The notes under the pieces are model-generated. The model had not been told where the DNA came from and searched no databases. It worked only from the letters and a program-made list of their open reading frames with translations. Shown here piece by piece: positions 43,347 through 56,969 of a DNA stretch of 64,000 nt. Source of the DNA: Sphingomonas sp. BT-65 (GTDB lineage Bacteria > Pseudomonadota > Alphaproteobacteria > Sphingomonadales > Sphingomonadaceae); assembly GCF_026107375.2 (NCBI RefSeq), contig NZ_JAPCIA010000003.1:232105-296104 (forward strand). The letters are read 5' to 3'. The translations under genes were made by a program, and so were the position numbers. Position 1 is the first letter of the stretch. Each line of letters starts with the position of its first letter.

Positions 43347-43481
43347 GTCGAAAATCCTTTCTGTGGATTGGCGACGACAGGCCTAGGGCAGGGGGCGACC
43401 GGGAGGCGTGAAGCCAGCGTCGGTGAAGCGTGAAAACGACATCGGCAAGCGGGCAGCGGTTGACGCGCGGCGGGTGCAGGA

Positions 43482-43495
43482 TGAGAACGTTCCCA
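43482..43495. promoter_or_regulatory. LacI-type operator palindrome, GH16 copy
   Basis: TGAGAACGTTCCCA with the perfect core GAACGTTC, 19 bp upstream of the GH16 start. The same core occurs before GH3 and the receptor of this locus. Confidence 0.6.
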
Positions 43496-43514
43496 TCATC
43501 ATGGGAGAGGACCG

Positions 43515-44381
43515 ATGTGGTTTGCGATCGTGGCCGCGATGCAGACGGCGACCCTGGGGGCGACCAACGTCAAGGCCGATGTGCCGATGACGGTGCCGGC
43601 TACGAAACCGAGTTTTGCCGACGAGTTCGACGGCCCGAAGATCGACACCGGCAAATGGCTGTTCGACACGCACCGGAACCGCGAGGGCTGGTACAATAAC
43701 GAGCGCCAATATTATGCCGACGGGCGGCCCGAGAATGCGCGGATCGAGGATGGCGCGCTGGTGATCGAGGCGCGGCGCGAGTCGCTCAAGGGCAAGGCCG
43801 CGGACTGGGGCGGGCAGGAGTACACCTCGGCCAAGCTCGTGACGCGCGAGCGCTATGGCTATGGTTTCTATGAGATCCGCGCGAAGCTGCCGTGCGGGCG
43901 CGGGATGTGGCCGGCGATCTGGATGTTGCCAACTGGGGAGAAATGGCCCGACGGGGGCGAGATCGACATCATGGAGATGGTCGGCTGGGACGCGCACGTG
44001 ATCCACGCGACGCTCCACACCGGCGCATACAACCACGCCAAGGGCACGCAGCGCGGGGCGCAGGTAAAGGTGCCGACGGCATGCACCGCCTATCACCGCT
44101 ACCAGCTCGACTGGCGGCCCGGCGTGATCACGATCGGCATCGACGGGCGCGGGCATATGCAGGTCAAGGACGATCAGCCCGGCGGCTTGGCGGCATGGCC
44201 GTTCGTGCGGCCCTATGAGTTGATCCTCAACCTGGCGGTCGGCGGCGACTGGGGCGGGAAGCACGGGATCGACGATGCCGCGCTTCCGCAGCGCATGCAT
44301 GTCGATTATGTGCGCTATTGGGCGGCGGCGCCTAGCGCCGATGCCGGATCGCCAGCACCAGCAGCCCGCCCAGCAGAGTGA
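43515..44381 (+). CDS. GH16-family beta-glucanase (laminarinase type)
   Basis: A 288-residue endo-glycosidase. The catalytic motif is E149-I-D-I-M-E154 in WPDGGEIDIMEMVG; DEFDGPKIDTGKWLFDTH and GYGFYEIRAKLPCGRGMWPAIW are the usual GH16 strands, the latter typical of beta-1,3(4)-glucanases such as laminarinase. The N-terminus (MWFAIVAAMQTATLGA) is a short, weak signal peptide. ATG at 43515 has GGGAGAGG 4 nt upstream. A LacI-type palindrome lies just before. It would cut beta-glucan outside or in the periplasm, feeding GH3 and the receptor of the same regulon. The 3' end overlaps the convergent MFS gene by 50 nt. Confidence 0.9.
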   Translation: MWFAIVAAMQTATLGATNVKADVPMTVPATKPSFADEFDGPKIDTGKWLFDTHRNREGWYNNERQYYADGRPENARIEDGALVIEARRESLKGKAADWGGQEYTSAKLVTRERYGYGFYEIRAKLPCGRGMWPAIWMLPTGEKWPDGGEIDIMEMVGWDAHVIHATLHTGAYNHAKGTQRGAQVKVPTACTAYHRYQLDWRPGVITIGIDGRGHMQVKDDQPGGLAAWPFVRPYELILNLAVGGDWGGKHGIDDAALPQRMHVDYVRYWAAAPSADAGSPAPAARPAE

Positions 44382-45579
44382 GGCCGGCGAGCGCCAGCAT
44401 CACCGGGCCGAAATCATGCGGGGTCGCCAGCGCCCAGGTGAGCGCGGGACCGGCCAGCGCGGGCAGCGTGTTGGTGAGGTTGATCAGCCCGAGATCGCGG
44501 CCGCGGTGGCGCGGATCGGGCAGTAGCTGCATCGCGAAGCCCGAATGGAGCGAGAGGAACGCGGCCGAGCCCAGCGCATAAAGCGCGAAGGCAAGCGCCG
44601 CCAGATTCCAGTCCCGCACGAAGGCCAGCCCCGTCAGACCCAGCGCGGCGAGCGCGGCAAAGGCGATCAGGAAGGGCTTGCGGCGCCCGATCCGGTCGGA
44701 CCAGCGCCCCGCCAGCACCGCGATGGGAAGCGGCACGAGATAGGCGACCGTCATCAGCTGCCCAAGGGCCCCGACATGCTTGGAGGCGGGGGTGGCCGGG
44801 TCGATGCTCGCGAAATAATAGACGAGGTAGAGCCACAGCACGTTGCCCGCGACCTGCACCAGCAGCCGGGACGCCCAGGCGATGGCGAGATCGCGGCCCA
44901 GCAGCGGCGCTTCGTGTGGCGGGGCGGCGGCGGGCGCGATCCGTGATGGCGCGAGCAGCAACGGGAGGACGCAGAGCAGCACCGCGGCGAGGACGAAAGC
45001 GAGCCGGGCGGACTCGCTGCTGATGCCGATCGCGACCATCAGCGCCGCCACCGCCGACGCGAGCGGCGCGCCGAGCGCGATGAGGCCGCCAGCCAACCCT
45101 TTTTGAGCGTCGGGCACCTCGTCCGCCATCACCGCGAACATCGGTGCCAGCACGGCATTCACCGCGGTCTGAAACAGCGCGACGGCGAGGATGATCTGCA
45201 CGGGCGTGACGGCCAGGGTGACGGCGGCGAAGGATGCCGCGAGGCCAGCCAGGCCGAACATGATCCATCCGCGCCGCCCGTGTCCGCGCGCCACCGAGCG
45301 ATCGCTGAGCCAGCCGAACAGGATGTTCGACGCGCTCGCCGCGAGCGCGCCGGCGATGACGGTGGCGGTGAACACGGCGATGCGATCATCGCCCGCGATC
45401 CCGGCGACCTTGACCGGCAAGAGCAGAGTGAGCAGCGGCAGGAAGCCGATCACGCCGCCGGCATTGGCGAGTGCGACGAGCAGGATGAAGCGCAGTGACC
45501 GCCGCGCCGGATACCCGGTCTGAAACTCGCTTCCCAACACCGTCCCCCGCATCCCGGTCGTCGCGCCTGCGTTGGCCAC
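44332..45579 (-). CDS. MFS permease, glycoside transporter-like
   Basis: A 415-residue inner-membrane transporter with about 12 hydrophobic segments. LFGWLSDRSVARGHGRRGWI and LAGRWSDRIGRRKPFLIAF are the two copies of the MFS loop 2-3 motif. The overall plan resembles SLC45/AmpG-like carriers of disaccharides. The annotated start is GTG at 45579, 26 nt after the GH3 stop; ATG at 45552 is a reasonable alternative because neither has a clear Shine-Dalgarno site. It is placed after GH3 on the same strand and so probably imports the glucose or oligosaccharide produced. Its 3' end overlaps the GH16 gene. Confidence 0.82.
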   Translation of the reverse strand: MANAGATTGMRGTVLGSEFQTGYPARRSLRFILLVALANAGGVIGFLPLLTLLLPVKVAGIAGDDRIAVFTATVIAGALAASASNILFGWLSDRSVARGHGRRGWIMFGLAGLAASFAAVTLAVTPVQIILAVALFQTAVNAVLAPMFAVMADEVPDAQKGLAGGLIALGAPLASAVAALMVAIGISSESARLAFVLAAVLLCVLPLLLAPSRIAPAAAPPHEAPLLGRDLAIAWASRLLVQVAGNVLWLYLVYYFASIDPATPASKHVGALGQLMTVAYLVPLPIAVLAGRWSDRIGRRKPFLIAFAALAALGLTGLAFVRDWNLAALAFALYALGSAAFLSLHSGFAMQLLPDPRHRGRDLGLINLTNTLPALAGPALTWALATPHDFGPVMLALAGLTLLGGLLVLAIRHRR

Positions 45580-45605: not shown

Positions 45606-47849
45606 CTAGGGCTTCATCGTCGCCGGGTCGAGGCTCGTCGTGAGCAGCAGCGAACGGTCGGTCGCATCGCGCGCGATGGCGATGCGGTAGCTGCCGCCGC
45701 GGATGCGCCAGCCAGGCAGAGTTGTGTCGTAATCGGCGAGAATGCGCGGCTCGGCGATGAGTGTGACGCGGCGCGTCTCTCCCGGCTTGAGCTCGATCCG
45801 GCGGAAGGCGGCGAGGCGCATCGGATTGTCCGAGCCTTCGCGCGTCACATAGATTTGCGGCACGTCCGCACCGGCGCGCGCGCCGGTATTGGTGACGTCG
45901 AACGAGACGGTGAGCCGGGCGCCACCGCTGGCGCTTGCGTTGCGATAGGCGAAGCTCGTGTAGCTGAGCCCGTGGCCGAAGGGGAACAGCGGCTTTTGGC
46001 CCTTCTTCTCGTACCAGCGATAGCCGACGTCGCTGCCTTCGACATACTCCACCGGGAAGCTCTTGAGCTCGTAGGCGCCCGAATTCGCGGGGTTGGCTGC
46101 GGCCGCCGCCTGGAGCGAGGTGAAGGTGTCGAGGCCGACCGGCTGCGGGCGCGGCGCCTGCCCCTCATGCGCCGGGAAGGTGATTGGCAGACGGCCCGAG
46201 GGATTGACCTTGCCGGTGAGGATATTGGCGATCGCCTCGCCGCCGCGCTGGCCGGGATACCAGGCCTGTACCACCGCGGGGACGCGATCGAGCCACGGCA
46301 TCGTCACCGGGCCGCCCGTGGTGAGCGCGGCGATGGTCTTCGGCTGCGCGGCGGCGACCGCTGCGACCAGCGCGTCCTGGTGATGCTGGAGTCTGAGGTC
46401 GGGCACGTCATCGGCCTCGGTCGTCCATTGCGTCGCGAAGACGATGGCGAGATCGGCTGCCTTTGCCGCATCGACCGTGGCGTTGAGGTTGCGGCCGTCG
46501 ACGAAGCTCACCTGCGCGCCCGGCAGCGCCTTGCGCAGCGCGGCGAGCGGCGAGGAGGCGTGATAGGTGATGCGCGCAAACGATGCGGAACCACCAGTCG
46601 ACAGCGCGATCTCGATCGGCGCGCCGCCGACCGAGCGCACCTGGCTCGATCCGCCGCCCGAGAGCACGCCGAGGTCGGCGCCGCCCCCAATCACCACGAT
46701 CTTCTTCGCGGTGCGGGCGAGGGGGAGGAGGTCGCCCTGGTTCTTGAGCAGCACGATCCCTGCCTCGGCCGCGCGCTGCGCGACGAGCGCGTTGCGGGCA
46801 TAGTCGGGGGTCTGCGCCTTGGCGGGCATCGGCGTGTCATAGGCGCCGCTCTCGATCAGGCCGGTGAGATAGCGGACGACCATGTCGTCGAGCCGCGCCA
46901 TCGGCACCTCACCCTTCTCGACCGCGGCCTTGAGCGGCGCGTCGAAATACATCGCGCGGTCGAGCTCCTGGCCCGATTGCTGGTCGAGACCCGCCTTCGC
47001 GGCCTTTTCGGTCGAATGGACGCCGCCCCAGTCGCTCATCACCCAGCCGCGATAACCCCAATCGCGCTTGAGCACCTGGTTGAGCAGGAAGTCGTTCTCG
47101 CACGCCCAGTCGCCATTGACCTTGTTATAGGCGCACATGACCGAGGCGGGCTTGCCCTTCTCGATCGCGATCTGGAAGGCGAGCAGGTCGCTCTCGCGCA
47201 GCGCGGCCTCGCCGATGCGCGCATCGAGCACCATGCGGCCGGTCTCCTGCGCATTGAGCGCGAAATGCTTGATCGTCGAGACGATGCGGTTGGACTGGAC
47301 GCCCGCGATATGCGCGCCGGCGAGTTCGCCCGCGAGCAGCGGATCCTCGCCGAGATACTCGAAGTTGCGCCCGCCCCACGGATCGCGCGTCAGGTTGACG
47401 CCGCCCGCTAGCAGCACGTTGAAACGCTTGGCGCGCGCCTCGCTGCCGATCATCGCGCCGCCGGCGCGGGCGATCTCGGGATCGAAGGTCGCGGCGGTGG
47501 CGAGACTGGAGGGGAGGGCGGTGGCGACGTCGCCCTTGCGCTGTTCGACCTGGTTGGCGACGCCGAGCGAAGCGTCGCTTTCGCGCACCAGCGGCACGCC
47601 GAGTCGGTTGTTGCCCTCGATATGGCCGGCCGAGGGAATCAGTTCATTCGCGGGCTTCACCTTGGTGAGCGGGGGGAAGAGGCCGTGGACCAGCGCGATC
47701 TTCTCGTCGAGCGTCATGCGGGTGACGATCGATTCGGCTCGGGCACGCGCGTCGGTGACGGCAGCCGGTGCTTCCTGCGCGAATCCCGCATTTGCGCCAA
47801 TGGTAGCGATCGCAGTCGCTGCAAGCAGCGCGGCAACGGTCCGGCTCAT
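45606..47849 (-). CDS. GH3-family beta-glucosidase
   Basis: A 747-residue exported exo-glycosidase. Signal peptide about 1-25. GH3 barrel: nucleophile D273 in GWVMSDWGGVHST, substrate-binding K194-H195 in IVSTIKHFALN, ARIGEAALRESDLLAFQ. The C-terminal alpha/beta sandwich (GIVLLKNQGDLLPL, PWLDRVPAVVQAWYPGQRGG) is followed by a fibronectin-III-like domain (GHGLSYTSFAYRN to the end). ATG at 47849 has GGAGAGGGAACAGG upstream; the longer frame is rejected. It should release glucose from beta-glucan oligosaccharides. A GAACGTTC palindrome lies 62 bp upstream. Divergent from the receptor gene, cotranscribed with the MFS permease. Confidence 0.92.
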   Translation of the reverse strand: MSRTVAALLAATAIATIGANAGFAQEAPAAVTDARARAESIVTRMTLDEKIALVHGLFPPLTKVKPANELIPSAGHIEGNNRLGVPLVRESDASLGVANQVEQRKGDVATALPSSLATAATFDPEIARAGGAMIGSEARAKRFNVLLAGGVNLTRDPWGGRNFEYLGEDPLLAGELAGAHIAGVQSNRIVSTIKHFALNAQETGRMVLDARIGEAALRESDLLAFQIAIEKGKPASVMCAYNKVNGDWACENDFLLNQVLKRDWGYRGWVMSDWGGVHSTEKAAKAGLDQQSGQELDRAMYFDAPLKAAVEKGEVPMARLDDMVVRYLTGLIESGAYDTPMPAKAQTPDYARNALVAQRAAEAGIVLLKNQGDLLPLARTAKKIVVIGGGADLGVLSGGGSSQVRSVGGAPIEIALSTGGSASFARITYHASSPLAALRKALPGAQVSFVDGRNLNATVDAAKAADLAIVFATQWTTEADDVPDLRLQHHQDALVAAVAAAQPKTIAALTTGGPVTMPWLDRVPAVVQAWYPGQRGGEAIANILTGKVNPSGRLPITFPAHEGQAPRPQPVGLDTFTSLQAAAAANPANSGAYELKSFPVEYVEGSDVGYRWYEKKGQKPLFPFGHGLSYTSFAYRNASASGGARLTVSFDVTNTGARAGADVPQIYVTREGSDNPMRLAAFRRIELKPGETRRVTLIAEPRILADYDTTLPGWRIRGGSYRIAIARDATDRSLLLTTSLDPATMKP

Positions 47850-47911
47850 CCTGTTCCCTCTCCTGACGGCGGTGCGACCGCCCTTCTTGGTGGCGCACAG
47901 ACAGCATAATT

Positions 47912-47925
47912 TGAGAACGTTCACA
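47912..47925. promoter_or_regulatory. LacI-type operator palindrome, GH3 copy
   Basis: TGAGAACGTTCACA, core GAACGTTC, 62 bp from the GH3 start in the 203-bp divergent region. Confidence 0.6.
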
Positions 47926-47974
47926 ACAGCGGTTTTCCGCCGTTCGTGGAAACTCCGCGAGGAATGGGCATGCT

Positions 47975-47988: not shown

Positions 47989-47998
47989 AAAGGGTTCA

Positions 47999-48012
47999 GG
48001 TGAACGTTCTCA
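47999..48012. promoter_or_regulatory. LacI-type operator palindrome, receptor copy
   Basis: GGTGAACGTTCTCA, core GAACGTTC at 48002-48009, 40 bp upstream of the receptor start. The right arm TTCTCA mirrors the left arm TGAGAA of the other two copies. Confidence 0.58.
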
Positions 48013-48052
48013 ACGAGTGCAGATTCACTGCGCCGTAAAGGGGAGGACGAGG

Positions 48053-51000
48053 ATGCGGGGCACGACTCGCTCGATTTCGCGACTGGTGATTGGCGTATCG
48101 ACTCTGGCGATGGCCGCGACTCCGACACTGGCACAGGATACGCAGGACGCGCCGCCGCCCGCCGAGGAGACCGAGGACGTCGTCGTCACCGGCATCCGCG
48201 CCAGCCTCGAACAGTCGATGACGATCAAGCGCGACGCGCAGGGCGTGGTCGACGCGATCTCTGCCGAGGAGATCGGCAAGTTCCCCGACACCAACCTCGC
48301 CGAATCGCTTCAGCGCATCACCGGCGTGTCGATCGACCGCTCGAACGGCGAAGGCTCGCTGGTGACGGTCCGCGGCTTCGGTCCCGAATTCAACCTGGTG
48401 ACGGTCAATGGCCGCCAGATGCCGACCGCCCTCATCGGTGACGGTGGCGGTCCGCCGTCGTCGCGCTCGTTCGACTTCGCGAACCTCGCTTCGGAAGGCA
48501 TTTCGGCGGTCGAGGTCTACAAGAGCGGCCGCGTGACGATGGAATCGGGCGGTATCGGCTCGACCATCAACATTCGCACGCCGCGCCCGCTCGACCGGCC
48601 GGGCCTGCGCGGAAGCATCTCGGTGAAGGGCGTGTACGACACGTCGCGCAACGAGGGCGATCCGATCACCCCCGAAATCTCGGGCATCGTCAGCTCGACC
48701 TTCGCCGACGACCGGATCGGCATCATGATCGCCGGCTCGTACCAGAAGCGCAAATCGAGCACGAACACCGCCAGTGCCGGCTGGCGCGACGGCTATCTCG
48801 GCAGCGAGAACAACTGGGGCTCGCTGGCGCAGCCGGGCACGCCGCGCGCTGCGAACATCACCAACCGTCCCGATCCGACCGACGTCTATCAGGTGCCGCA
48901 GAGCGCGTCCTACAATCTCGAGGACATCAACCGCGAGCGCATCAACGGCCAGGCGGTGCTGCAATTCCGTCCGATCGACAGCCTCACCGCGACGATCGAT
49001 TTCCTCTACTCGCGCAACACGGTCGAAACGCGGAACAGCAACGTCGGCGTGTGGTTCAACCACGAAGACACGTCGAGCGCGTGGACCGACGGCCCGGTCG
49101 CCGGTCCGATCTTCTACACCGAACGCTTCGCGCCTCCCACCGGGGTTCCCAGCCCGAACGCCCTCTATGGCGGCAAGGATCTTTCGTACAGCGGCGCGCT
49201 GATCGAGAACCGCGCCGAGAACAAGTCGTTGGGCGCCAATCTGGAATGGAAGGCGCCGGGCGGCATGACGGTGGAGCTCGATTTCCATCATTCGACAGCC
49301 CAGGTGAATCCGGTCAACAATTACGGTTCAAGCATGTCGCTGGGCAACGCCGTCTTCGGCGTTCAAAGCCAGTCGGTCAATTTCGAGAATGACATGCCGA
49401 TCATCTCCTATCAGATGTTCCCGGGGATCGATCCGCTGAATGCAGGCATGATCGCCTCGACCGGCAACGCCTTCCGCAACGCCTATTTCCGGAACCGCAT
49501 CAACCAGGCGCAGCTGCGTGGTCACTACGACCATGACGAGGGGTTCCTCGACAGCATCGATTTCGGCGTGTCCTATATCGACAGCAAGGTGCGCTCGGCC
49601 TTCGGCACGATCCAGAACGACGATACCTGGGGCGGTGCTGGCCCGGCGTCTGATATCCCTGACGACATCTTCACCCTCGTGACCCTGCCGGACAAGTTCC
49701 CGGGGCTTGCCCAGTCCGGCATGATCCAGAGCTTCTACACCTTCAACTTCGAGCGGCTGGCCGATCTGGCGGAGCAGGAGTACCAGGTGTGCAGCAATCC
49801 CGCGACGGGCTCGGCCCAGCCGGGCACCTGTCTCGCCAACTTCAATACCGACCGGCGCATCACCGAGAAGACGCTGGCGCCGTACCTGCAGATCGCGACC
49901 AAGTTCGACCTCTTCCAGAATCCGGCGCATTTCGTGGCGGGTGTTCGCTACGAGACGACCACCGTCGCATCCTCGGCGATGGTGCCGGCGCCCGCGACCA
50001 CCAACTGGGTGGGCGAGAACGAATTCAACATCGTCTTTTCGGGCGGCAGCGAATTCACGCTGTTCAAGGGCTCGTATCAGAACTGGCTGCCGGCATTCGA
50101 CTTTGACCTCTCGCCGCTGACCAACGTCAAGCTGCGCGCGTCGTACAGCCACACGATCACCCGTGCCGACTATGCCAGCATGCAGGGTGGACGCACGCTC
50201 GACACGCTCTTCCGCGTCGGCGGCGGCACGGGCGCGCAGGGCAACCCCGGCCTGATCCCTTACAAGTCGAAGAATATCGATCTGTCCGCGGAATGGTATT
50301 ACGCGCCCGGCAGCTACATTTCGGTCGGCTATTTCCACAAGGACGTGGAGAACTTCATCTCCTCGACGCGGATCGATACGACGGCCTTTGGGCTGACGAC
50401 TCCGGTCGACGGGCCGCGTTGGCAGGCGGCCGTGGCTGCGGGGAGGACGACAGTCAGCGCGATCCGGCAATATATCTTCGACACTTTCCCCAGCACGGTG
50501 ACGATCACCGGAGGGGGTCCGGGTGCATGGACCGGCATCATCCATGCGGCGCCCGGCGATCCGCTGGTCAATTTCGAGGTCACGCAGCCGGTCAACAGCG
50601 ACCAGACCGCCGCGATCAACGGCTGGGAATTCGCGCTCCAGCACGCCCTCTGGGATACCGGCTTCGGCGTGATCCTGAACTATACGATCGTCAATGGCGA
50701 CGCGACCTATGACAATACGCAGCCATCGTCGGTGACCCAGTTCGCGCTGACCGGCCTCAGCGACAGCGCCAATGCCGTCGCCTATTACGACAAGAACGGG
50801 CTCCAGGCGCGCGTCGCATGGAACTGGCGCGACAAGTTCCTCGCGGGAACGGGGCCCAACCCCTTCTATACGGAGGCATATTGGCAGCTCGACGCCAGCG
50901 CGAGCTATGAGTTCATCCCCGGCCTCACCGGCTTTGTCGAGGCGATCAACCTCACCGGGGAAGGCCGGCGCGGGCATCTGCGGCACGAGAACAACGTGAC

Positions 51001-51055
51001 CTTCGTGCAGCCGGGATTTGCGCGCTACGCGGCGGGCGTGAGGTTCAACTTCTAG
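48053..51055 (+). CDS. TonB-dependent outer-membrane receptor
   Basis: A 1000-residue receptor. Signal peptide 1-28 (LVIGVSTLAMAATPTLAQ). TonB box EDVVVTGIRAS at 41-51; plug with DAISAEEIGKFPDTNLAESL, QRITGVSIDRSNGEGSLVTV, RGFGPEFNLVTVNGRQMP; the barrel ends in RYAAGVRFNF. ATG at 48053 has GGGAGGACGAGG upstream. The plug type (IGKFPDTNLAESLQRITGVSI) is the one found beside halogenase/SapC genes in sphingomonads, Caulobacter and Xanthomonas. It should import oligosaccharides made by the GH16 enzyme. Operator-like palindromes precede it, and the halogenase operon follows after 75 bp containing a hairpin. Confidence 0.93.
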   Translation: MRGTTRSISRLVIGVSTLAMAATPTLAQDTQDAPPPAEETEDVVVTGIRASLEQSMTIKRDAQGVVDAISAEEIGKFPDTNLAESLQRITGVSIDRSNGEGSLVTVRGFGPEFNLVTVNGRQMPTALIGDGGGPPSSRSFDFANLASEGISAVEVYKSGRVTMESGGIGSTINIRTPRPLDRPGLRGSISVKGVYDTSRNEGDPITPEISGIVSSTFADDRIGIMIAGSYQKRKSSTNTASAGWRDGYLGSENNWGSLAQPGTPRAANITNRPDPTDVYQVPQSASYNLEDINRERINGQAVLQFRPIDSLTATIDFLYSRNTVETRNSNVGVWFNHEDTSSAWTDGPVAGPIFYTERFAPPTGVPSPNALYGGKDLSYSGALIENRAENKSLGANLEWKAPGGMTVELDFHHSTAQVNPVNNYGSSMSLGNAVFGVQSQSVNFENDMPIISYQMFPGIDPLNAGMIASTGNAFRNAYFRNRINQAQLRGHYDHDEGFLDSIDFGVSYIDSKVRSAFGTIQNDDTWGGAGPASDIPDDIFTLVTLPDKFPGLAQSGMIQSFYTFNFERLADLAEQEYQVCSNPATGSAQPGTCLANFNTDRRITEKTLAPYLQIATKFDLFQNPAHFVAGVRYETTTVASSAMVPAPATTNWVGENEFNIVFSGGSEFTLFKGSYQNWLPAFDFDLSPLTNVKLRASYSHTITRADYASMQGGRTLDTLFRVGGGTGAQGNPGLIPYKSKNIDLSAEWYYAPGSYISVGYFHKDVENFISSTRIDTTAFGLTTPVDGPRWQAAVAAGRTTVSAIRQYIFDTFPSTVTITGGGPGAWTGIIHAAPGDPLVNFEVTQPVNSDQTAAINGWEFALQHALWDTGFGVILNYTIVNGDATYDNTQPSSVTQFALTGLSDSANAVAYYDKNGLQARVAWNWRDKFLAGTGPNPFYTEAYWQLDASASYEFIPGLTGFVEAINLTGEGRRGHLRHENNVTFVQPGFARYAAGVRFNF

Positions 51056-51130: not shown

Positions 51131-52681
51131 ATGCACAGCGTGGTCGAGAGGGTTGTCATCGTGGGCGGCGGCACTGCCGGCTGGCTGGCGGCGTCGCGCC
51201 TCGCCAGCTCGCCGCGCGCCCGCTCCGGCGGGCTCCGCGTCACGCTGATCGAGGCGCCCGATATCCCGATCATCGGCGTCGGCGAAGGCACCTGGCCGAC
51301 GATGCGCGCGACGCTTGCGGCGATCGGCCTCGGCGAGGCCGAATTCCTGCTCGCCTGCGACGCGTCGTTCAAGCAGGGATCGCGCTTTGACGGCTGGCTC
51401 GAGGGCACCCCGGAGGACCGTTACTATCATCCCTTCACCTCCCCACCCCCCGCCGCGATGGCAGAATTGCTCGCGGCCTGGCAGACGACGGCGCCCGACC
51501 TGTCCTTTGCCGCCGTGATGACCCCGCAGGCGCATGTCTGCGACCACGACCTCGCTCCGCGCCAGCGGATGATGCCCGACTATCAGGGCGCGGCGAACTA
51601 TGCCTATCATCTCGACGCCGGCAAGTTCGCCGTGCTGCTCACCTCGCACGCGACGCGGCGGCTCGGCGTCGAACATGTCGCCGCGCATGTCACCGGCGTG
51701 CGGCGCGGTGCGGGCGATACGATCGCCGCGGTCGTCACGCGCGAGCGCGGGGAGATTGAAGGCGACCTGTTCGTCGACTGCACCGGCCTTGCCGGGGTAC
51801 TGATCGGCGGGGAGCTGGGGGTCGAGTGGATCGACCGCAGTGACACGCTGTTCAACGATCGCGCGCTCGCCGCGCAGGTCCCCGTCGAGCCCGGGAGTGC
51901 GATCGCGTCGCAAACCGTGTCGACCGCGCATGAAGCGGGCTGGATCTGGGACATCGGGCTGCCCAGTCGGCGCGGCATCGGCTGCGTCTATGCCAGCCGC
52001 TTCATGGACGATGCCGCGGCGGAGGCGAGCCTGCGCGCCTATATCGCCCGCGTGCTACCCGACGCACCCGAAGTGCCGGTGCGCCGTCTTGCGTTCCCGA
52101 CCGGCCATCGCGCGCGCTTCTGGCAAGGCAATTGCGTCGCCATCGGCCTGTCGGCGGGCTTCATCGAGCCGCTCGAGGCCTCGGCGATCGTGCTGATCGA
52201 ATTGTCATTGAATGCGCTGATCGACAATTTTCCGGCCGATGCGGTGGCGATGCCGATCCACGCCAGACGCTTCAACAGCTTGTTCCGCTATCGCTGGGAC
52301 CGCATCGTCGAGTTCCTGAAGCTCCATTATGCGCTGAGCCGCCGTCAGGAGCCCTATTGGCTGGCGCAGCGCGATCCGGCGCACATCCCGCCGCGACTGG
52401 CCGAGATGCTGACGCTGTGGCGTGACCAGCCGCCATCGACCTGGGACTTCCCGCAAGTCGACGAGATCTTCTCGGCCGAGAGTCACCAGTACATTCTCTA
52501 TGGCATGGGGCATCCCGTGCCCGCCGGCGTGCAGGCCAACGACAAGGCCGGCGCGATGCTCATGCAGAACCGGCAGCGCGCCCGCTCGCTCGCCGCTGCG
52601 CTGCCCAGTAACCGCGATTATCTGGATGCGCTGCGCGCCGAAGCCGGCGCCGCGGCCGTGCGCCACGAAAGCAGGGTATGA
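51131..52681 (+). CDS. Flavin-dependent tryptophan-halogenase-like protein, copy 1
   Basis: A 516-residue FAD enzyme. GGGTAGWLA at 12-20 is the FAD-binding motif. K81 in [12 protein letters not shown] corresponds to the catalytic Lys of PrnA (K79). W271-I-W273-D-I matches the halogenase W-x-W-x-I motif, although LP is displaced by one residue. [18 protein letters not shown] holds the expected Glu. All key positions are therefore present. Known relatives brominate or chlorinate indoles, but the natural substrate of those in receptor loci is not established. A flavin reductase would be needed and is not seen here. Its stop overlaps SapC (ATGA). Start ATG at 51131; no strong Shine-Dalgarno site. 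Confidence 0.87.
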
Positions 52682-53397
52682 CTCAGCACGCCATTCTCGA
52701 CAACAACACCCACCGCGCGCTGCGCGTCCGCTCCGATGTGGGCACGGACCTTGGCGATGGCGTGATGGGGACGCTGACCGTGCCCAGCGAATTTCGCAAC
52801 GTGCAGGGCCAGTTCCCGATCCTGTTCCGCCGCGAAATGGGGCGCGACGACTTCTTCGCGCTCGCGCTGTTCGGCTTCGAGAACGGAGAGAATCTCTTCC
52901 TCGACGGCAATCGTTGGGACGCGCGCTACCGCCCGCTGTCACTCGCGATCCAGCCCTTTCTGATCGGGCGCCCGGAAAGCGGGGAGGGGCCGGGGCAAGT
53001 CCATATCGACCTTGGCCATCCGCGCATCGCGGCGGACGGCGAGGGCGTGCGGCTGTTCGACGCCGAGGGCGCGGCGACGCCCTATCTCGAGGATGTCGCC
53101 GAACGGCTCGGCGCGCTGGACGAGGGGTATCGCGCGAGCAAGGGATTTTTTGACGCGCTGCTCGCCCACGACCTGCTCGAACCGTTCAGCCTTGAGGTGA
53201 CGCTCGACGACATGTCGGTCCATTCGCTCGTCGGGTACCACATCATCGACGAGACCAAGCTGCGCCTGCTCGACGCGGAGACGCTGTGGCGCCTCCATGT
53301 CGATGGGCATCTGATGCCGATCTTCATGGCGCTCGCGTCACTGTCGCAGATCTCCGCGCTCGTCGCGCGCAAGAACCGCAGGCTGGCCGGTGGCTGA
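52678..53397 (+). CDS. SapC-family protein
   Basis: A 239-residue cytoplasmic protein of the SapC family, named after a Campylobacter S-layer gene cluster. Signatures: [18 protein letters not shown] near 36-53, [48 protein letters not shown] and a C-terminal [23 protein letters not shown]. Its biochemical role is unknown. It is almost always found with TonB receptors, halogenase-like and cupin genes in this group of bacteria. The start overlaps the halogenase stop by 4 nt and its end overlaps the cupin gene by 8 nt, so the four genes are translationally linked. Confidence 0.9.
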
Positions 53398-54418
53398 ACA
53401 GGCGCTGTCCATTCCCCCCTCTCTGACCAAGGTGCCGGAGCGTGACTGGAGGGCAGTGGGGCTCGACACGCTGCTCAAGGAAGCGCGCGAGCCCTTCGTC
53501 GTGCGCGGGCTGGTCGCCGACTGGCCGCTGGTCGCTGTGGGCAAGAGCGGCGCCCGCGCGGCGCGGCGCTATCTGCTGGATCATGCCCGCGACCGGCCCT
53601 TCACCGTCTCGATCGGCTCGCCCGGGCATGACGGGCGGATGTTCTACGACACCGACATGCAGATGAATTTCCGTACCGGAACGGGCAAGCTCGCCGATAT
53701 CTTCGCGGGGATCGATAAGGCCGAGGAGCTTGGCGAGAACCGCACCGTCTATCTCGCATCGATCGACATTCCGTCGCATTTCGACGGCCTCGACGCGGCG
53801 AATCCGATCGATCTCGGGATGCGGGATCCGTTGAAGAGCATCTGGATCGGCACGCGCACACTGATCGCCGCGCACAATGATTTCCCGGACAATCTCGCCT
53901 GCGTCGCGGTCGGCCGGCGGCGGTTCACGCTGTTCCCGCCCGACCAGTTTCGCAATCTCTATCTGGGGCCGATCGACAATACGCCGGCGGGCCGCACGGT
54001 GAGCATGGTCGATTTCAACGATCCCGATTTCGAGCGCTACCCGCGCTTCCGCGAGGCGCTGGAGCACGCCATGGTGGCCGAGCTCGGCCCGGGCGACGCG
54101 ATCCATATCCCGATGATGTGGTGGCACCACATCGAAGGGCTCGATCCGTTCAATGTGCTGGTCAACTATTGGTGGCGCGATACCCCGCGCTGGCTCGGCC
54201 AGCCGCAGGATGCGCTCAACCATGCGATCCTCTCGATCCGCGACTTGCCGCCCGAACAGAAGGCGCACTGGCGCGCGCTGTTCGACCATTATGTCTTTGC
54301 CAATGGAGATGATGTGACGGAACATCTGCCCGAGGGAATGCGCGGCATCCTCGATCCGCTGACGCACGAGACCGCTTCGCGCATCCGCGCCTATTTGCTG
54401 CGGCAGTTGAGCCGGTGA
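53390..54418 (+). CDS. Cupin/JmjC-like Fe(II) dioxygenase-type protein
   Basis: A 342-residue protein of the cupin-8/JmjC-like fold. The metal triad is probably H162 and D164 in IAAHNDFPDNLACVAVGRRR and H246 or H247 in IPMMWWHHIEGLDPFNVLVNYWW. The N-terminal EPFVVRGLVADWPLV is the usual opening of this group. Such proteins hydroxylate protein side chains with Fe(II) and 2-oxoglutarate. GTG at 53390 overlaps the end of SapC, and its own end overlaps the next gene (GTGA). Sitting between two halogenase-like genes, it may act with them on a common target, for example an aromatic residue or small molecule, but this is speculative. Confidence 0.84.
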   Translation: MAEQALSIPPSLTKVPERDWRAVGLDTLLKEAREPFVVRGLVADWPLVAVGKSGARAARRYLLDHARDRPFTVSIGSPGHDGRMFYDTDMQMNFRTGTGKLADIFAGIDKAEELGENRTVYLASIDIPSHFDGLDAANPIDLGMRDPLKSIWIGTRTLIAAHNDFPDNLACVAVGRRRFTLFPPDQFRNLYLGPIDNTPAGRTVSMVDFNDPDFERYPRFREALEHAMVAELGPGDAIHIPMMWWHHIEGLDPFNVLVNYWWRDTPRWLGQPQDALNHAILSIRDLPPEQKAHWRALFDHYVFANGDDVTEHLPEGMRGILDPLTHETASRIRAYLLRQLSR

Positions 54419-55911
54419 GCGCGCGTCCCGCGACACGCGTGGTCATCGCCGGTGGCGGCACCGCGGGCTGGATGGCCGCGGCTGCGATCAGCCGGACGAT
54501 GGGCCCCACGATCGACTTGACCCTGGTCGAGTCCGAGCAGATCGGCACGATCGGGGTGGGGGAATCGACCATTCCCCCGCTGGTCAACTTCAACCGCATT
54601 CTGCGCATCGGCGAGGCCGAGTTCATGCGCGCGGCGCAGGCGACCTTCAAGCTCGGCATCCTGTTCGACAATTGGAAGCATGACGGGCACAGCTATTTCC
54701 ACAGCTTCGGCCTGTCGGGGAAGGATCACTGGTCGGCGGGATTCCAGCATTTCTGGCTCTACGGGCGCGAGCGGGGGCACCAAGAGCCCTATGACGATTA
54801 TTGTCTTGAGCTCGCCGCGGCGATGCAGGGCAAGTTCGCGCACCTGCCGCAGGACCGGATGAACTATGCCTATCACGTCGATGCGACGCTGTACGGCCGC
54901 TACCTGCGCAAGCTCGCCGAGGAGGCGGGCACCAAGCGGGTCGAGGGCAAGATCCAGCGCGTCGAGCTGAACGGCGAGACCGGCGACATCGCCGCGCTGC
55001 TGCTCGATGGCGAGCGGCGGATCGAGGGCGATATGTTCGTCGACTGCACCGGCTTCCGCGGGCTGCTGATCGACGGCGCGCTGCATGCCGGGTTCGAGGA
55101 TTGGGGGCACTGGCTGCCCAACGACAGCGCGATCGCGGTGCAATCGAAGCATCTGGGGCCGCCGCAGCCCTATACCCAGGCGATCGCGCACGATGCGGGC
55201 TGGCAATGGCGCATCCCGCTGCAGCACCGCATGGGCGCGGGGATCGTCTATGCGAGCGGCTATCTGTCGCGCGACGAAGCCTATCACCGGCTGATTTCGA
55301 CCGTCGGTGAGCCGCTGATCGAGCCGTTCGACATCAAGTTCAAGGGCGGGGTGCGGCGCAAGCAATGGTATCGCAACTGCGTCGCTATCGGCCTGTCGGG
55401 CGGGTTCGTCGAGCCACTCGAGGCGACCACGGTGCACCTGATCCAGCGCGCGGTGCTGCGCTTCGTGCGGCTGATGCCCAACGGGCGCGTGAGCGAACGC
55501 GACGCGGCCGAGTTCAACGAGCAGCAGCGCCAGGATATCGAGCAGATCCGCGACTTCGTGATCCTGCACTACAAGGCGACCAACCGGCGCGACAGCGCGT
55601 TCTGGCGGCATGTCGCGGCGATGCCGGTACCGGATTCGCTGGCGCAGAAGATCGAGCTGTTCCGCGAGACCGCCCGCACCTTCCGCAAGAATGAGGAGCT
55701 GTTCGCGGAAAATAGCTGGGTGCAGGTGATGATGGGGCAGGGGATCGATCCGCAAAGCTGGCATCCGATCGCGGAGAAGCTGTCGGACGACGAGCTGGCG
55801 CGGCTGCTGGCGACGCTGCGCGAGGATGTGACGCGCACCGTCGCGACGCTGCCCGAGCATCATGCCTATGTCGCGCAATATTGTGGCGCCGCCGATCCGG
55901 TGGCGGCCTGA
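54415..55911 (+). CDS. Flavin-dependent tryptophan-halogenase-like protein, copy 2
   Basis: A 498-residue FAD enzyme related to copy 1 but not a recent duplicate. FAD motif GGGTAGWMA at 13-21; IGVGESTIPPL; catalytic K79 in ATFKLGILFDNW; the full W263-Q-W265-R-I-P268 motif; Glu in GGFVEPLEATTVHLIQRAV. Conservation of all halogenase positions argues for activity. GTG at 54415 overlaps the cupin stop. The sequence is closer to the canonical halogenase pattern than copy 1, so the two could differ in substrate or one could assist the other. Followed after 11 bp by the LacI regulator. Confidence 0.88.
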   Translation: MSARPATRVVIAGGGTAGWMAAAAISRTMGPTIDLTLVESEQIGTIGVGESTIPPLVNFNRILRIGEAEFMRAAQATFKLGILFDNWKHDGHSYFHSFGLSGKDHWSAGFQHFWLYGRERGHQEPYDDYCLELAAAMQGKFAHLPQDRMNYAYHVDATLYGRYLRKLAEEAGTKRVEGKIQRVELNGETGDIAALLLDGERRIEGDMFVDCTGFRGLLIDGALHAGFEDWGHWLPNDSAIAVQSKHLGPPQPYTQAIAHDAGWQWRIPLQHRMGAGIVYASGYLSRDEAYHRLISTVGEPLIEPFDIKFKGGVRRKQWYRNCVAIGLSGGFVEPLEATTVHLIQRAVLRFVRLMPNGRVSERDAAEFNEQQRQDIEQIRDFVILHYKATNRRDSAFWRHVAAMPVPDSLAQKIELFRETARTFRKNEELFAENSWVQVMMGQGIDPQSWHPIAEKLSDDELARLLATLREDVTRTVATLPEHHAYVAQYCGAADPVAA

Positions 55912-55922
55912 GCGACACACGC

Positions 55923-56969
55923 ATGGCACGCCGGAAACAGGCCGTCACGATCCGCCACGTCGCCGCCGATGCCGGCGTGTCGCTGCAGACCGTGAGCCGC
56001 GTCATCAACAAGGAGCCGAACGTACGGCCCGAGATGGCCGAGCGCGTGCGCACCTCGATCGCAAAGCTCGGCTATGTCCCGTCGATCGCGGCGCAGCGGA
56101 TGAGCGGATCGCGGTCGTATCTGATCATGGCGCTCAACGACCGCGAACGTACCCTCGACGGCTGGCGCGCGCGCGACGGCACCGACTGGGTCGACCAGAT
56201 GCTGCTCGGCGGGATGCTGACCTGTTCCGAACATGGCTATCGCCTGATCGTCGAGCTGGTCGACACGCACAGCGACCATATCGAGCGCGAACTTTCCGCG
56301 GCGCTGGCGGCGCTCCAGCCCGACGGGGTGATCCTGACGCCGCCGCATTCGGCCAACCCGGCGATCCTGGAGTTGCTCGACGACGCGCATATCAGCCTGG
56401 CGCGGATCGGATCGCTGCACGAGGGGCCGGGGTTCCGGCTGACGATGGGGGACGATCTGGCGGCGGCGCTCGCCACGCGGCACCTCACCGGGCTCGGCCA
56501 TGCGCGGATCGCGCTGATCGCCGGGCCGGACGAATATGAGCTGAGCGGCTGGCGTGTCGATGGCTGGCGCGCGGCGATGGCCGAGGCCGGGCTGTCCACT
56601 GAAGGATTGCTCGCGCAGGGCGATTTCAGCCGCGAGTCCGGCCGCGCCGCGGCGCCGCGCCTGATCGATGCTGGGGCGACCGCGATCATCGCGAGCAACG
56701 ATCAGATGACGCTCGGTGCGCTCGAGGTTGCGCGCGAACGCGGCTTGACGGTGCCGCGCGACCTCTCGCTGATCAGCTTCGACGACACGCCGATCGCGCG
56801 CTTCAACCACCCGCCGCTGACCGCGATCACGCAGCCGATCGCCGAAGTGACGGCGCGGGCGGTCGAACTGATCATCGCGGCGCGGGGCGGGCGGGCGGTG
56901 CCGGACGGGCCGGTGGTCGTGCCGCCGACGCTGACGGTGCGGGAATCGACGGCCGCGCCCCGCCACTGA
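55923..56969 (+). CDS. LacI-family transcriptional regulator
   Basis: A 348-residue repressor. The helix-turn-helix at about 9-30 reads IRHVAADAGVSLQTVSRVIN, followed by VRPEMAERVRTSIAKLGYVP and a sugar-binding sensor domain (ALIAGPDEYELSGWRVDGW, IIASNDQMTLGALEVARERG, ISFDDTPIARFNHPPLTAI). It lies at the end of the halogenase operon, 11 bp after it. It is the obvious candidate to bind the GAACGTTC palindromes before GH16, GH3 and the receptor, with a glucan-derived sugar as inducer. ATG at 55923 is chosen over an upstream start at 55881 that would run into the halogenase end. This link is inferred from position and operator type. Confidence 0.9.
   Translation: MARRKQAVTIRHVAADAGVSLQTVSRVINKEPNVRPEMAERVRTSIAKLGYVPSIAAQRMSGSRSYLIMALNDRERTLDGWRARDGTDWVDQMLLGGMLTCSEHGYRLIVELVDTHSDHIERELSAALAALQPDGVILTPPHSANPAILELLDDAHISLARIGSLHEGPGFRLTMGDDLAAALATRHLTGLGHARIALIAGPDEYELSGWRVDGWRAAMAEAGLSTEGLLAQGDFSRESGRAAAPRLIDAGATAIIASNDQMTLGALEVARERGLTVPRDLSLISFDDTPIARFNHPPLTAITQPIAEVTARAVELIIAARGGRAVPDGPVVVPPTLTVRESTAAPRH

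Follow-up and report, generated by a model that had tools for sequence, protein, structure and literature searches.

A halogenase, SapC and JmjC gene module coupled to TonB-dependent receptors in Sphingomonas sp. BT-65: a possible receptor-tailoring system

We have analyzed a 64,000-nt stretch of the genome of Sphingomonas sp. BT-65 (contig NZ_JAPCIA010000003.1, positions 232,105-296,104), here called the window, whose own numbering is used below. Directly behind the gene of a TonB-dependent receptor (TBDR) it encodes a module of four overlapping genes: two flavin-dependent halogenase-like proteins that we term HalA and HalB, a SapC family protein, and a JmjC/cupin_8 protein that resembles FIH. 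Synteny, recurrence and correlated distances support that this module is coupled to the receptor and not to glucan. We tentatively favour the view that the four genes constitute a cytoplasmic tailoring module for the cognate TBDR, acting before its export. The receptor gene (48053..51055, forward strand) starts with an ATG at 48053 that is preceded by a purine-rich stretch, and its product, with plug and barrel domains, matches the TIGR01782 family with 619.2 bits. After a gap of 75 bp follow, on the same strand, HalA (51131..52681), SapC (52678..53397; PF07277, 195.7 bits against a cut-off of 28.9), the JmjC protein (53390..54418; PF13621, 221.1 bits) and HalB (54415..55911), with overlaps of 4, 8 and 4 bp by the coordinates of the open reading frames (ORFs). 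A preliminary description of this DNA had reported four overlapping genes behind the receptor, and it is borne out by the ORFs and by profile matches to the families that it named.

The arrangement is conserved beyond chance. Gene order was read from BLAST matches around the best-scoring 80 of at least 580 confirmed HalB relatives, and hence these 80 homologous loci represent close relatives. By its best hits the host is a sphingomonad that stands near Sphingopyxis. The order TBDR-HalA-SapC-JmjC-HalB is found in 68 of them and the same order without HalA in nine, together 77 of 80. The remaining three are JmjC-HalB on a short contig (L071; L numbers denote individual loci), HalB alone at a contig end (L079) and HalB alone in 17 kb (L015). 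A few loci (e.g. L014, L036, L054 and L063) have one gene split over at least two frames. Forty SapC loci were fetched from more distant genomes. Ten of these combine TBDR, SapC, JmjC and HalB, and HalA is present in three of the ten. The other 30 hold lower-scoring SapC genes (63-138 bits to our own profile, against 165-296 bits for the module type) in mixed neighbourhoods, one of them (L138) with a halogenase-like gene a few genes away. SapC was therefore ruled out as a marker of the module. Judged by score and neighbourhood and not by a tree, the lower-scoring genes are treated here as a probable separate clade. Within the phylum SapC is present in 92 of 249 genomes and a strong halogenase in 39, with six halogenase candidates scored per genome; 38 of these 39 genomes have SapC, compared to 54 of the 210 others. 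This co-occurrence may be largely taxonomic. Reduced arrangements were also seen, namely TBDR-SapC-halogenase and TBDR-halogenase-DUF6445.

The halogenases follow the receptor also where SapC was not the basis of selection. We chose 40 halogenase loci away from SapC and called receptors by a profile based on TIGR01782. In 29 loci a TIGR01782-like TBDR (>300 bits to the profile) lies within 310 bp, and three further loci adjoin a TBDR of another type, giving 32 of 40 with a TBDR next door; in two more the TBDR is found about 2.1 kb off. The host genome itself contains ten PF04820 genes, grouped into seven clusters, and 28 receptors that exceed the TIGR01782 cut-off. Six of the seven halogenase clusters adjoin a TBDR. 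Near the seventh, at a distance of one gene, is an ORF that matches the receptor profile weakly (41 bits). Five of the six TBDR-adjoining clusters include glycosidases, which are GH16/GH3, GH13 with GH97, GH97, GH39 with GH43 and an alpha-galactosidase, and an arabinofuranosidase with GH3. Related halogenases in this genome hence adjoin TBDRs of alpha-glucan, xylan-type and arabinoside loci. Since the glycosidases differ among these clusters, the glycan varies while the receptor is constant. A Sphingomonas plasmid (L207, 2944-9518) carries TBDR-SapC-cupin-halogenase between sulfur and type VI secretion genes, and no glycosidase is annotated in the 17 kb read there, from a plasmid gene table that is stated to be incomplete. 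The earlier proposal of a coupling to a glucan receptor thus stands as far as the receptor is concerned, but glucan does not define the module, as related halogenases adjoin receptors in loci for other glycans too.

Receptor and halogenase also appear to have been inherited together. For 43 pairs of TBDR and HalB that lie at most 2.2 kb apart, with HalB above 400 bits, the two distance matrices correlate with r = 0.575, a value that none of 2000 free permutations reached. When HalB was exchanged only between paralogous pairs within one genome (nine genomes with 23 such pairs), the mean r was 0.294, and again none of 5000 swaps reached 0.575. The distances of TBDR and HalB therefore correlate beyond species effects, and because swaps within genomes never reach the observed value, the pairs have been kept together across duplication.

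By profile and catalytic residues HalA and HalB are predicted flavin-dependent halogenases. They match PF04820 (curated cut-off 21) with 387.6 and 594.1 bits, respectively. The closest PDB entries to HalA are 9ltb (721.8 bits) and 2pyx (446.4 bits), both over nearly the full length, while HalB is closest to 6y1w (Xcc4156; 608.6 bits), 9luq (496.6 bits) and 6frl (BrvH; 443.5 bits). The FAD motif GxGxxG reads GGGTAGW in both proteins and both keep the glutamate of the EPLE motif. Alignment places the lysine and the tryptophan pair at K81 and W271/W273 in HalA and at K79 and W263/W265 in HalB. The WxWxIP motif is WQWRIP in HalB and WIWDIG, with an altered IP end, in HalA. The preliminary description had both enzymes keep every halogenase landmark, which is correct for the lysine, the tryptophan pair and the glutamate but not for the end of this motif in HalA. 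The segment that binds free tryptophan (group-B motif) was not found in HalB, where NEELFAENS aligns with YYHGLPPYS of 6nsd. The C-terminal Trp-binding segment of free-tryptophan halogenases has been described as the Trp4 motif (PMC8269204).

Of the 98 halogenase rows in our alignment, 89 have lysine and glutamate in the two catalytic columns. The other nine, which correspond to eight genes of which one was fetched twice, have lost both residues, and several of them also lack the FAD motif. Each of these genes shares its locus with a better-scoring copy. They are found in TBDR clusters (L121 572-2059, L163 5386-6843, L168 8470-9837, L171 8769-10202, L173 2994-4478, L174 7044-8528, L175 3481-5211 and L185 11038-12531) and are candidates for non-catalytic subunits. 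Relatives of HalB are furthermore encoded by 63 phage records (E<=1e-10), including KC465899, DQ149023 and MT835646, and an unannotated faecal phage record shows 52 percent identity to HalB.

The JmjC protein keeps its iron site. H162, D164 and H246 do not vary among 23 sequences that were aligned, the one from the window being among them. They correspond to the segments AHYD and WWHH of FIH, in agreement with the HxD..H metal set noted earlier for the cupin. The match to FIH reaches 85.4 bits (E 3.7e-23) over residues 158-272. FIH and JMJD5 are hydroxylases of protein residues, and a fold search with the structural model (pLDDT 80.8) places both near the top: of 606 matches at E<=0.001 the best 50 were considered, and the tRNA hydroxylase TYW5 is among these as well. 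An arginine aligns with Lys214 of FIH, the lysine that binds 2-oxoglutarate. In three loci a DUF6445 (PF20043) gene stands beside HalB or a HalB relative (L133 10905-11606, L154 11021-11731, L206 9478-10194). Its product may replace the JmjC step or add to it.

For SapC, whose name stands for a role as S-layer component, the model is confident (pLDDT 94.3) and no PDB entry matches its fold at E<=0.001. In some loci a giant gene immediately precedes a SapC gene of the lower-scoring kind (L116 9614-18979, L127 114-7703 and L131 8873-15976). One of these giant genes encodes a haemagglutinin-family protein that carries an STN domain, and the other two encode RTX-repeat proteins.

What could such a set of proteins do next to a receptor? 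Judged by eye, the N-terminus of the TBDR looks like a signal peptide, and no signal peptide was seen at the N-termini of HalA, SapC, the JmjC protein and HalB, which are probably cytoplasmic. A precursor-peptide gene was considered as a substrate source inside the module and rejected: because the four genes overlap, there is no room for one between them, and the sole gap, the 75 bp behind the TBDR, is short. We favour tailoring of the TBDR precursor in the cytoplasm because by eye a signal peptide is seen on the TBDR only, because no peptide gene lies between, because among exported partners it is the TBDR that recurs most constantly, and because the halogenase-like enzyme QhpG offers a precedent. 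Starting from the observed linkage, correlated distances and catalytic residues, we infer location, target, chemistry and order of steps as follows. The module proteins would remain cytoplasmic and modify the TBDR precursor while it is still unfolded, ahead of its export by the Sec system. HalB, aided by HalA in most close relatives, would halogenate or oxidise at least one aromatic side chain, most likely a tryptophan, and the FIH-like JmjC protein would hydroxylate another side chain. SapC might serve as a scaffold or as a subunit that presents the substrate. The modification could then tune folding, stability or ligand binding of the cognate TBDR, or its resistance to phages or proteases. 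It is a more doubtful generalization that in many bacteria modules of halogenase, JmjC hydroxylase and SapC each mark one cognate TBDR before export, with halogenated Trp or Tyr and hydroxylated residues, and that this is the natural role of the BrvH/Xcc4156-type halogenases.

Several results weigh against tailoring of the receptor. The co-inheritance of TBDR and HalB fits specific pairing, but it fits simple co-duplication of neighbours too, and since neighbouring genes co-duplicate, correlated distances are no proof of contact. The six of the 40 chosen halogenase loci in which no TBDR was detected nearby, like the locus with HalB only (L015), do not fit. When 39 halogenase-linked TBDRs were compared with 25 unlinked ones, no aromatic column was found that separates all linked from unlinked receptors; neither set includes nine TBDRs, seven of which belong to SapC modules, whose distance to a halogenase is 1.5-2.2 kb. 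Of the two best tryptophan columns, one has W in 26/39 linked and 1/25 unlinked receptors and is a gap in the receptor of the window; the other has W in 20/39 and 3/25. W925 was considered as a target lead and dropped, as it is not among the associated tryptophan columns of this comparison. The linked TBDRs are spread over several clades and are not all of the same TBDR type, and hence a single shared modification site is unlikely. Tryptophan is more frequent in linked than in unlinked TBDRs (1.28 vs 1.00%; p 0.009, uncorrected for testing six residues and for phylogeny), but this enrichment may come from sugar binding. Columns that track the presence of HalA (66 TBDRs with and 16 without) reach at best p 1e-7 in the TBDR and 1.3e-9 in SapC, and the TBDRs that lack HalA are at the same time the more distant ones. 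In SapC, Arg125 follows HalA, being present in 66 of 70 sequences with HalA and in 3 of 16 without, a post hoc result out of about 1700 tests. Among sphingomonads Arg125 is changed in three of about six apparent losses of HalA, and three distant loci with HalA also lack it. By these sequence comparisons Arg125 is a possible contact site. Modification of the receptor, as raised in the preliminary description, is thus a proposal that goes beyond the supported coupling; the residue-level comparisons gave no common target residue.

The module might instead make a small aromatic compound, for example a halogenated or hydroxylated indole derivative that is used for signalling, chelation or defence while the glycan is available. 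The chemistry known from relatives fits this idea: BrvH brominates indole in vitro (PMC5945002), and indole derivatives are reported as substrates of BrvH and of three halogenases from Xanthomonas (PMC7336383). However, BrvH shows little turnover of indole, and its authors question whether this is the compound that it acts on in nature (PMC5945002). None of the module genes was recognised as one for making or exporting a small molecule, the MFS transporter of the window fits sugar uptake, and an FIH-like hydroxylase and SapC would fit a small-molecule product less well. We therefore regard such a product as unlikely.

A protein substrate other than the TBDR is quite unlikely in our view. Candidates would be a periplasmic or surface glycosidase, a regulator, or a TonB/ExbBD partner of the uptake system. 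Some other target is needed in the HalB-only locus and wherever no TBDR was detected near the chosen halogenases (two of these loci have GH31 or GH94), and lower-scoring SapC genes can follow genes for giant surface or RTX-domain proteins (L116, L127, L131). Against this stands the TBDR as the most constant partner, and in the stretch read of the plasmid (L207) the TBDR is the sole uptake gene annotated with the module. Finally, an action on aromatic substituents of the imported glycan, such as phenolic or lignin-like decorations, would agree with the position of the genes in glycan-uptake loci and with the operator that they appear to share with the glycosidases, but it is very improbable, as the same halogenase family occurs in alpha-glucan, beta-glucan and arabinoside/xylan-type loci, alpha-glucan and beta-glucan are not expected to carry aromatics, and the module proteins look cytoplasmic by eye.

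The surroundings of the module are those of a TonB-dependent carbohydrate-utilisation locus, with TBDR, glycosidases, MFS transporter and LacI regulator together, and its genes would have roles in regulation and transport. Upstream of the receptor lie a GH16 glycosidase (43515..44381, forward strand; PF00722, 84.7 bits) and, on the reverse strand, an MFS transporter (44332..45579; PF07690, 97.7 bits) and a GH3 glycosidase (45606..47852; PF00933/PF01915). A LacI-family regulator (55881..56969, forward strand; PF00356/PF13377) follows HalB; its start codon is uncertain and the listed ORF overlaps HalB. Palindrome scans revealed two operator-like sites between the divergent GH3 and TBDR genes (47911..47926 and 47998..48013, both given for the forward strand). 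A third upstream of GH16 (43481..43496, forward strand) matches TGAGAACGTTCNCA exactly and the 16-base form with three mismatches. With up to three mismatches to the 16-base form the window has three sites, against 0.14 expected from shuffles. TGAGAACGTTCNCA with at most one mismatch occurs in four places of the 4.08 Mb genome, the fourth being just upstream of a distant GH5-like gene (L203 3607-5406) whose identity was read from its translation, without a profile match. Since the palindrome is common to GH16, GH3/TBDR and the GH5-like gene, the module appears to be part of a beta-glucan regulon. Among homologous loci GAACGTTC is found upstream of the TBDR in 64 of 72 tested, compared to 0.014 per 500 bp elsewhere in the same loci, and 75 of the best 80 have a LacI match further downstream in the same orientation. 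The neighbouring LacI protein would be the one that binds the palindrome.

Thus, the arrangement of known families is real and recurrent, and as far as the open-licence literature shows it is unexplained. No paper describing TBDR, halogenase, SapC and JmjC together was found in that literature, as judged on titles and abstract openings. The term "undescribed system" used earlier for this locus is justified to this extent, but the arrangement is not unique to the window and its genes are annotated one by one in public records. Annotations such as "tryptophan halogenase", "SapC-related" and "Pass1-related" probably occur in sugar regulons of Xanthomonas and Caulobacter; no confirming paper was found in the literature searched. 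As most sampled halogenase loci (32/40) neighbour a TBDR, the linkage offers a testable target for this halogenase family. If the receptor is the substrate, outer-membrane proteins would be modified in a way for which we found no description, and the module would provide protein-tailoring halogenases. Otherwise the linkage would still reduce the search to a single pair of genes that can be tested.

Individual parts of the module resemble known systems to different degrees. TonB-dependent carbohydrate-utilisation loci have the same TBDR, GH16, GH3, MFS and LacI genes with shared operator-like sites, but sugar uptake leaves the tailoring enzymes of the window unexplained. HalA matches the "tryptophan halogenase" structures 2pyx and 9ltb over nearly the full length. 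This name is the label of the depositors, and we know of no established function for either protein. The bromide-preferring enzymes Xcc4156 (6y1w) and BrvH (6frl) are matched by HalB nearly over the full length, and HalB keeps the lysine, the glutamate and WxWxIP. A second halogenase gene lies upstream of the BrvH gene, just as HalA precedes HalB; BrvH did not halogenate free tryptophan and acted weakly on indole, while its active site might accommodate larger compounds (PMC5945002). That the native substrates of BrvH and of the Xanthomonas halogenases are unknown is stated or suggested in the papers on them (PMC7336383, PMC5945002). "TonB" and "SapC" were not found in the main text of the Xcc4156 paper (PMC7336383), nor was "TonB" in that of the BrvH paper (PMC5945002). 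The JmjC protein shares with FIH (HIF1AN) and JMJD5 the HxD..H triad, the WWHH segment and the fold, and differs from FIH by the arginine that aligns with the 2-oxoglutarate-binding Lys214. QhpG belongs to a different family, as HalA and HalB reach 33.5 and 28 bits with NF049967, whose cut-off is 240, and it works together with a radical SAM enzyme (PMC7876137). However, QhpG resembles FAD-dependent halogenases in structure and dihydroxylates tryptophan of a protein that is later found in the periplasm (PMC7876137). It thereby sets a precedent for the mechanism proposed here, that of a halogenase-like flavoprotein which acts on tryptophan inside a protein.

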